Notes under the pieces: generated by a model
The model's input: the letters and a program-made list of their open reading frames with translations, nothing else
Told to the model about the DNA's origin: nothing
Databases searched by the model: none
Position numbers and translations under genes: made by a program
DNA from: a virus
Virus record (IMG/VR): IMGVR_UViG_3300027977_000149
Coordinates: 1 to 29,200 of that record
Direction: 5' to 3' (one strand)
DNA: 29,200 bases
Shown: positions 22,259 through 28,838 of the stretch, in pieces
How the letters are laid out: the number at the start of each line of letters is the position of its first letter
Numbering within the stretch: position 1 is the first letter of the stretch

Positions 22259-22277
22259 ACTTTACAAATCGTAAAGT
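22259..22277 (-). promoter_or_regulatory. Leader hairpin of the reductase mRNA
   Basis: ACTTTAC and GTAAAGT form a 7-bp stem around a 5-nt loop in the ~55-nt leader between the promoter and the reductase start. It may affect RNA stability or start-site access. It is too small to be a cobalamin riboswitch. Confidence 0.4.
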
Positions 22278-22284
22278 ACTCCCA

Positions 22285-22293
22285 AGTATAGCA
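22285..22293 (-). promoter_or_regulatory. Extended -10 promoter TGCTATACT for the reductase gene
   Basis: TGCTATACT on the minus strand in the 162-bp gap upstream of the reductase. It is identical to the element in front of the 136-aa gene at 15933. Confidence 0.6.
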
Positions 22294-26617: not shown

Positions 26618-26626
26618 ATTATATCA
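26618..26626 (-). promoter_or_regulatory. Extended -10 promoter TGATATAAT, leaderless arrangement
   Basis: TGATATAAT on the minus strand, 6 nt before ATG 26611. Its first three bases are also the TGA stop codon of the upstream 66-aa gene. Confidence 0.6.
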
Positions 26627-27752: not shown

Positions 27753-27783
27753 CTTACAAGAGTTGTACTTATGAGTAATTTTG

Positions 27784-27792
27784 TGTTATACT
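27784..27792 (+). promoter_or_regulatory. Extended -10 promoter TGTTATACT for the lysozyme gene
   Basis: TGTTATACT on the plus strand, with a weak TTGTAC -35 at 27763-27768 (18-bp spacing). The -10 ends exactly 6 nt before the ATG of a 10-codon upstream ORF. Confidence 0.65.
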
Positions 27793-27797
27793 AGGTG

Positions 27798-27821
27798 TAT
27801 GACACCGTATATGGTGTCATA
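27798..27821. repeat. Perfect palindrome at the lysozyme transcription start
   Basis: TATGACACC and GGTGTCATA are 9-bp arms around GTATAT. The element spans the predicted transcript start. It could be a repressor operator or a 5' RNA hairpin, and it also encodes part of the upstream ORF. Confidence 0.75.
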
Positions 27822-27831
27822 TGCATTTTAG
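27799..27831 (+). CDS. Leaderless 10-codon upstream ORF (MTPYMVSYAF)
   Basis: ATG at 27799 stands 6 nt after the -10 hexamer, the same spacing as the leaderless genes in this window. The frame encodes MTPYMVSYAF and stops at TAG 27829-27831, overlapping the AGGAGG of the lysozyme gene (27830-27835). Translation of the ORF would melt the palindromic hairpin and end on the ribosome site, a layout that could couple or control lysozyme synthesis. It may alternatively be only part of a non-coding leader. Confidence 0.5.
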   Translation: MTPYMVSYAF

Positions 27832-27841
27832 GAGGATAAAC

Positions 27842-28393
27842 TTGACAAATAATAAAATGCTTGTAGGGGTAATAGGTAGTACGTTTCTGTTGGTATCTAT
27901 TTTAGGTTCTATACCGTCTCATGCTACCAAAAACAATTTATCAAAATCAGAAGGAATAGTCTTTGCCACCCCAGAGGTGGCTTTTCTGCTTTCTGAGGAT
28001 AAAAATGAAAAAATACTTACTAAGTATAAAAATGCGACAAGTTTGACTGACAGCCAGTTAGTTGAATTACTTGAAGCAGTGGGGTTCAAAGGAAAGGCTT
28101 TAAGAACTGCCTACGCAGTTGCTAAGGCTGAATCCAATGGTCGCCCGTTTGCTTTTAACGGAAACATCAAAACTGGAGACTCCTCATTTGGCGTCTTTCA
28201 AATCAATATGCTAGATGTTCTTGGAGAGGATCGCCGTGAGCGATTTGATCTAGAGCATAATGCTGATCTTTTCAATCCCGTCATAAATGCACAAATTGCA
28301 TATCGCATGACAAAGGGCGGTATTGATTGGAGTTCATGGTCATCTTATAATAAAGGTGCTGTGAATAAGTGGCTTCATAAATTCCCTGGTTAA
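27842..28393 (+). CDS. Secreted lysozyme-like transglycosylase (candidate endolysin)
   Basis: A 183-aa protein starting at TTG 27842 with AGGAGG 6 nt upstream; an in-frame ATG at 27821 overlaps the palindrome and lies ahead of the ribosome site. Residues 6-28 (MLVGVIGSTFLLVSILGSIP, cleavage after SHA) form a Sec-type signal peptide. The domain at about 70-183 is lysozyme/SLT-like: candidate catalytic Glu97 in YAVAKAESNGRP, then SSFGVFQINM and a C-terminal WSSWSSYNKGA. Such enzymes cleave the glycan of peptidoglycan. It is the only plus-strand gene of the window, convergent with the fibre genes to its right, so its timing is probably separate from virion genes. Host lysis or cell-wall entry are both possible; no holin was seen. 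Confidence 0.82.
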   Translation: MTNNKMLVGVIGSTFLLVSILGSIPSHATKNNLSKSEGIVFATPEVAFLLSEDKNEKILTKYKNATSLTDSQLVELLEAVGFKGKALRTAYAVAKAESNGRPFAFNGNIKTGDSSFGVFQINMLDVLGEDRRERFDLEHNADLFNPVINAQIAYRMTKGGIDWSSWSSYNKGAVNKWLHKFPG

Positions 28394-28410: not shown

Positions 28411-28441
28411 ACCCCCAGATTTTGGTCTGGGGGTTATTTTT
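28411..28441. terminator. Strong bidirectional rho-independent terminator
   Basis: ACCCCCAGA (28411-28419) and TCTGGGGGT (28426-28434) form a 9-bp stem followed by TATTTTTTTA on the plus strand; on the minus strand the same stem is followed by ATTTTTATT. It ends the lysozyme transcript and the convergent minus-strand fibre transcript. Confidence 0.9.
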
Positions 28442-28451
28442 TTATATAAAA

Positions 28452-28838
28452 TTATTTGGCGTATCTAACTATAACTATACCTGAGCCGCCTGCGCCAGCA
28501 GTTGCTGTACTGTTATGACTTGCTCCGCCACCACCACTACCTGTATTGGCTGTACCACTTGTTGCTTGAACAGTTGTTGCTTGGTTTTTTGCACCTTGTC
28601 CACCACCACCAGTTCCGCCGTTTCCAGTAGTTGATGCACCGCTATAGGTAGAACCACCGCCTCCACCAGCATAAGTTACAGAAGAACCAGTAATGGATAC
28701 TGCAACTCCATTACCACCGCTACCAGCAGTTGTTCCTGAAGCATCTCCACCTATTGCACCCGCACCGCCACCTCCGCCACCGTTATTTCCAGTGTTAGTG
28801 CTAGAATTTCCACCTCCACCGCCAACGCCTATGCCCAC
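28452..28838 (-). CDS. Glycine-rich fibre-tip protein, 5' end probably incomplete
   Basis: A 128-aa ORF, over one third Gly, starting at GTG 28838 (MGIGVGGGGGNSSTNTGNNG). The segments GNGVAVSITGSSVTYAGGGG and GAGGSGIVIVRYAK are standard for the Gly-rich tips of many phage fibres, so the frame is clearly coding. The start is doubtful: there is no ribosome site, and the upstream sequence stays open without a better start while becoming the antisense of a different protein-like stretch. The usual fibre N-terminus is missing. It appears to be a tip domain cut from a longer protein by rearrangement. Confidence 0.7.
   Translation of the reverse strand: MGIGVGGGGGNSSTNTGNNGGGGGGAGAIGGDASGTTAGSGGNGVAVSITGSSVTYAGGGGGSTYSGASTTGNGGTGGGGQGAKNQATTVQATSGTANTGSGGGGASHNSTATAGAGGSGIVIVRYAK

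Follow-up and report, generated by a model that had tools for sequence, protein, structure and literature searches.

The pR'-tR' region of bacteriophage lambda combines a promoter-proximal terminator with antitermination. In gene e of bacteriophage T4, which encodes lysozyme, a helix sequesters the Shine-Dalgarno (SD) sequence or the start codon in early read-through transcripts, while late transcripts are made without the 5' strand of that helix (PMC3014915). Base pairing or stem-loops at the 5' terminus stabilise the ompA, papA and aprE mRNAs, as cited in PMC3997798; moreover, RppH of B. subtilis requires at least two unpaired bases at the 5' end (PMC3997798), and pyrophosphohydrolases are blocked by terminal stem-loops (PMC4681348).

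The phage lysozyme locus analysed here resembles the ompA, papA and aprE leaders (PMC3997798): in both, a stem-loop of freely varying sequence lies at the 5' end or within a few bases of it and precedes an open SD. It differs from those leaders in that the stem starts at the predicted first base—with a stabilising effect proposed by analogy—and in that the device serves the genes for lysozyme and ribonucleotide reductase in relatives of actinophages, the lysozyme gene adding a hairpin in its coding region. With T4 gene e it shares a leader hairpin adjoining the promoter (PMC3014915); unlike its T4 counterpart, the hairpin here is transcribed from the gene's own promoter and leaves the SD outside. 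A literature search of open-licence papers found no account of the lysozyme leader, and the Rfam 15 covariance models gave no credible match at gathering score for either the leader or the coding-region hairpin.

The window (29,200 nt; positions 1–29,200 of the 29.2-kb IMG/VR virus record IMGVR_UViG_3300027977_000149) belongs to a large group of uncultured, environmental phages that are kin of actinobacterial phages. Its portal protein shares 45–47% identity with the portals of large Streptomyces phages, and contigs related to it reach 100–118 kb. The comparison covered more than 200 IMG/VR relatives overall, with a protein search yielding 80 loci, an alignment search from which the best 80 of at least 600 stretches were used, a promoter-leader pattern search yielding 61 loci and one further query yielding 80. 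The rows in all counts below share descent, and the number of sequences does not equal the number of independent events. A host search of GTDB genome contigs found no close homologue, the alignment search there returning four distant matches with 33–36% identity. Transcript ends are sequence-based predictions throughout.

The leader stem-loop and its conservation

Table 1. Features of the lysozyme locus and of the reductase leader in the window.
Feature	Position	Strand	Basis and remarks
-35-like TTGTAC	27763..27768	+	Sequence; 18 nt upstream of -10; TTGACT/TTGACA in relatives
Extended -10 TGTTATACT	27784..27792	+	Sequence; kept by nearly all relatives
Discriminator AGGTGT	27793..27798	+	Complement of ACACC in the 5' arm
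5'-terminal RNA stem-loop ATGACACC (27799-27806) - GTATAT - GGTGTCAT (27813-27820)	27799..27820	+	Folding, covariation; predicted +1 27799
10-codon mini-ORF MTPYMVSYAF* (ATG ACA CCG TAT ATG GTG TCA TAT GCA TTT TAG)	27799..27831	+	Not conserved as an ORF
U-rich linker, stem to SD	27821..27829	+	6-11 nt across relatives
Shine-Dalgarno AGGAGG	27830..27835	+	Sequence, relatives
Lysozyme-like gene	27842..28393	+	TTG start; SLT_3/SLT domain; N-terminal hydrophobic signal-like segment
Second hairpin GCCACC-CCAGA-GGTGGC, then TTTTCTGCTTTCT	27965..27981	+	Within lysozyme CDS; terminator-like; covariation
Intrinsic terminator-like hairpin	28411..28434	+	Directly 3' of the lysozyme gene
Ribonucleotide reductase promoter TGCTATACT and stem-loop near +1 (ACTTTACG-ATT-TGTAAAGT)	22259..22293	-	Sequence, relatives

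Upstream of the TTG, the lysozyme reading frame stays open as far as an ATG at 27821, but the SD spacing speaks for the TTG. Since a terminator-like hairpin directly follows the gene, the lysozyme transcript is probably monocistronic, and a role in lysis is suggested by the domain and the signal-like N terminus of the product. Just past the gene, on the opposite strand, lies a sequence (28452–28838, minus strand) that matches, at 68–78% DNA identity, hypothetical proteins encoded by Pelagibacter phages and by phage DSL-LC04 and that appears glycine-rich.

The window and two relatives of about 100 kb contain many genes whose start codon falls 4–9 nt past the -10, its first base very often being nucleotide 7. 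As the leaderless genes of these phages often start at nucleotide 7, the +1 of the lysozyme transcript was calibrated to that position and is predicted at 27799, which is also the first base of an ATG (27799–27801) separated from the -10 by 6 nt in the window. In the window, the structural-gene promoters on the minus strand at 26626, 20198, 15948, 13864, 11071 and 27752 likewise have their start codons 4–9 nt past the -10, so these structural-gene mRNAs are probably leaderless. Among the lysozyme leaders with a parsed stem, the stem begins most often at nucleotide 7 after the -10 (46 of 89; range 5–10), and at nucleotide 11 in one clade (L042). The predicted +1 coincides with the commonest stem start, and the 5' end of the mRNA is therefore predicted to be base-paired.

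At this point the arms TATGACACC (27798–27806) and GGTGTCATA (27813–27821) form a perfect 9-bp inverted repeat flanking GTATAT. The window leader folds better than its dinucleotide shuffles (z = -2.7, with 2 of 200 shuffles equally good), and the mean folding z over 47 distinct leaders of relatives is -3.75. A recognisable -10 was present in 108 distinct leaders, and a script detected the stem-loop in 89 of these, one more (L211) being recognised by eye. In the window's lysozyme clade, each of the 90 distinct leaders carries a stem that starts no more than a few nucleotides from +1. The stem is absent from a distant sister clade, whose 17 leaders are of the short form cgttatctctaa-AGGAGG, and from one remote homologue. 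Across all of IMG/VR, the promoter-leader pattern lies upstream of a lysozyme gene, with the exception of one chance group—conservation in related phages that an earlier note on this DNA had proposed to look for.

That note had also proposed to seek compensatory changes in the arms. In a 37-row alignment, changes on both sides were found in 6 of the 8 stem pairs; 95.6% of the helix cells are paired, against only 22–51% at slid control positions, and 52 cells hold double changes versus 18.5 in shuffles, while the covariation score of 0.486 (0.214 in shuffles) was matched by none of 500 shuffles. Pairs that depart from the consensus within the helix comprise 8 G.U and 0 A.C cells, and the helix of the L042 clade gives 9 G.U and 0 A.C; an earlier wobble count on the flanks stood at 15 G.U to 3 A.C. 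Another count, which admitted loop bases and gave 12 G.U to 12 A.C, was set aside in favour of the helix-only counts, its A.C pairs probably stemming from the ctttaacaa loop shared by the L042 clade, to judge from the loop sequences. Loop length ranges from 3 to 9 nt among relatives, several loops being of the GNRA type (GAAA, GCAA, GCGA), and sister leaders exchange 4-nt and 5-nt loops such that the frame shifts and the stem remains. On this comparative evidence, the palindrome is an RNA stem-loop, maintained in structure while its sequence is free to change.

Two further patterns were observed around the stem. The discriminators AGGTGT, AGGTGC, TAGTGC and AGTGCT complement the 5' arm and covary with it, giving a three-part repeat (27793–27806, plus strand in the window) that occurs in 20 of 22 CAC-type leaders (0 of 1000 shuffles) and is absent from CTAC-type leaders. 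Separately, base pairing is possible between the linker TGCATTTT and early codons (AAAATGC), which would leave the SD and the start codon in a loop (27821–27870, plus strand); this pairing exceeds that with shuffled partners, an excess for which U-rich/A-rich composition and descent may account.

Mini-ORF, SD gating and operator readings

The earlier note had described a compact control unit consisting of the extended -10, the ATG, the palindrome, the 10-codon ORF, an overlap of its stop with the SD and the TTG start, and each of these elements is indeed present in the window, with the TAG (27829–27831) overlapping AGGAGG. The mini-ORF as a conserved unit did not survive comparison. An ATG at +1 occurs in 49 of the 89 distinct leaders, and a stop over the SD in 11 of the 89; elsewhere the frame ends within the stem, reaches or passes the lysozyme start, or lacks its ATG, and in 18 of the 89 leaders no ATG occurs anywhere. 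In addition, ATG is replaced by ATA together with a change in the partner base that preserves the pair. Neither a conserved ORF nor a fixed relation between stop and SD, as a leader peptide or translational coupling would call for, was found among the 89 leaders, and the mini-ORF was rejected as a conserved coding unit on the 11 that share the geometry. A leaderless mini-ORF translationally coupled to lysozyme—for which the exact geometry in the window, the abundance in these phages of leaderless genes with an ATG at nucleotide 7 and the frequency of the +1 ATG could be cited—is hardly tenable in the face of a frame and stop that drift and an ATG that disappears while pairing persists. The 10-codon ORF is probably a by-product of the A at +1 and of U-G in the stem.

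The same note had supposed that translating the mini-ORF opens the hairpin and delivers ribosomes to the lysozyme start, a proposal not supported by the position of the stem, which leaves the SD uncovered. The SD has a predicted unpaired probability of 0.62 when the stem is intact, and scrambling the 5' arm leaves this value at 0.62. An arrangement of the T4 gene e type, with the SD or start codon in the helix, was not found in the leaders, where the SD lies 6–11 nt downstream of the stem. SD gating by the leader hairpin was accordingly rejected, the site being equally open without the stem.

It had further been suggested that the palindrome could be a repressor operator, here taken as a DNA site to which a dimeric repressor would bind across the start point. 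The palindrome does overlap +1, and the discriminator holds a third copy of the half-site that covaries with the arm in the CAC-type leaders counted above. However, the constant half-site and spacing expected of a dimeric-repressor operator were not found among the relatives: the arms and loop lengths vary, the distance between arms differing by at least 6 bases. Mismatches are of the G.U kind, and G.U, never A.C, substitutes for A-U or G-C in the helix-only counts; moreover, GNRA loops are present and the CTAC group has no discriminator repeat. We thus consider binding of a repressor to this DNA very unlikely.

A second hairpin in the coding region

A promoter/terminator scan first flagged GCCACC-CCAGA-GGTGGC-TTTT at 27965, beyond the coordinates of the earlier note, and this hairpin with its T-rich stretch (27965–27991, plus strand) may act as a terminator or a pause site, or may have another function. 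By script, a terminator-like hairpin was found in 88 of the 90 distinct genes with a leader stem, located at nt 115–155 of the coding sequence in 83 of those 88 (with parsed leader); several of the remaining leader-stem genes show a weaker one by eye at the same place. None of the 24 genes without the leader stem has a hairpin there. It occurs on the sense strand only, and a further such hairpin lies beyond nt 200 in just 3 of the 88 genes. The arms are 95.8% paired, compared with 66% when arms are shuffled, over 40 distinct arm pairs, the register being taken from the loop, as the MAFFT alignment misregistered 4- and 5-nt loops. Stem strength averages 16.6 versus 10.0 under synonymous recoding, and about 3% of recodings keep so strong a stem; because the stem is far stronger than recoding gives, the coding hairpin is, on this measure, under selection.

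The stem is GC-rich and conserved at the RNA level, as in an intrinsic terminator or attenuator, and the lambda pR'-tR' region likewise has a terminator-like hairpin in front of the coding sequence of a lytic enzyme, the distance from +1 being about 190 nt here. Unlike in lambda, the hairpin sits within the coding sequence, its T-run shows no selection over and above codon usage, and the analysis identified no antiterminator. The strongest rival to protection of the mRNA end is accordingly a two-hairpin attenuator, in which the coding hairpin and T-run would act as an intrinsic terminator, full-length lysozyme mRNA would arise only if RNA polymerase passes (through close ribosome coupling or an antitermination factor), and the 5' stem would perhaps serve as a pause or loading element. 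The near-constant company of the two hairpins, the strong covariation, the rarity of recodings with an equal stem, the restriction to the sense strand and the scarcity of such hairpins farther downstream all speak for it. Conversely, the T-run, present in most relatives, averages 6.3 against 5.7 expected from codon usage, with no enrichment, and it is missing in the L042 clade, which keeps the hairpin as GGCCAC-GNAA-GTGGCC; the co-occurrence of the leader and coding hairpins could be one ancestral event; and a search for antiterminator pairing with the coding hairpin found no consistent partner. On balance we rate the attenuator as unlikely, and the same low weight attaches to its corollary that full-length lysozyme mRNA depends on translation or a phage factor, which would time lysis and so give, through this second hairpin, a timing role of the kind suggested in the earlier note.

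Alternatively, the 5' stem could be a ribosome standby site, with the coding hairpin slowing ribosomes after the signal-peptide codons for export targeting. The stem-to-SD linker is held at 6–11 nt, the coding hairpin (nt 120–150) directly follows the signal-like segment, and it is the stem and not the T-run that is selected. Nevertheless, SD openness is independent of the leader stem, a hairpin of 5–7 bp is a weak barrier to ribosomes, and the reductase—for which export is not expected—also has a 5' stem, with no consistent early coding hairpin. We find this reading unlikely.

Proposed shielding of the mRNA end and the reductase leader

At other extended -10 sites (n = 445), +1 stems numbered 6, versus 7 at random positions, showing no excess; however, 5 of these 6 matches are the ribonucleotide reductase promoter. 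Eighty reductase loci comprise 50 distinct leaders; a stem close to +1 is present in nearly all of these, in the sequence families ACTTTGC/GCAAAGT, GCTTTG/CAAAGC and ACTTCAG/CTGAAG, which differ from the lysozyme stem. The reductase stem-loop was seen to covary (L222–L301), and it is long and terminator-like in the relatives L282, L271 and L279. No consistent early terminator-like hairpin was found in the reductase coding sequence.

We tentatively favour, as close to an even chance though short of it, the reading that the palindrome forms a stem-loop at the 5' terminus of a monocistronic lysozyme mRNA and, as its leader, shields the end of that message. The extended -10 promoter would start transcription at about 27799, the first bases would be paired in an 8-bp stem, and beyond a short U-rich linker would lie an accessible AGGAGG, followed by the TTG start. 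By analogy with the stabilised leaders, slowed 5'-end decay is the most likely consequence, since the 5' end is hidden within the stem: removal of the 5' pyrophosphate, and then 5'-end-dependent attack by RNase E or RNase J, would be slowed, and a long-lived lysozyme message may result. The reductase mRNA of the same phages would use the same device in another sequence. Three features of a stabilising leader were found here, namely a stem at or near the predicted 5' end (mode nucleotide 7; nucleotide 11 in one clade), pairing kept through compensatory changes and G.U pairs while the sequence is free, and a ribosome binding site that is not occluded (0.62 versus 0.62). Against end protection, the stem at nucleotide 11 in the L042 clade may leave several 5' bases unpaired, and only the lysozyme and reductase genes carry the device. 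Furthermore, end protection alone does not explain the discriminator repeat or the coding-region hairpin.

A single lysozyme mRNA thus combines two covarying RNA structures, neither of them matched in Rfam and both common to a large group of environmental phages, in genomes that also carry leaderless genes. A mini-ORF within a structured leader can be incidental, as this locus illustrates. The attenuator, if true, would amount to control of lysis timing. More broadly, these structures provide a concrete example, open to testing, of the ways in which actinophage-like viruses may shield or gate the mRNA of an enzyme that degrades the cell wall.
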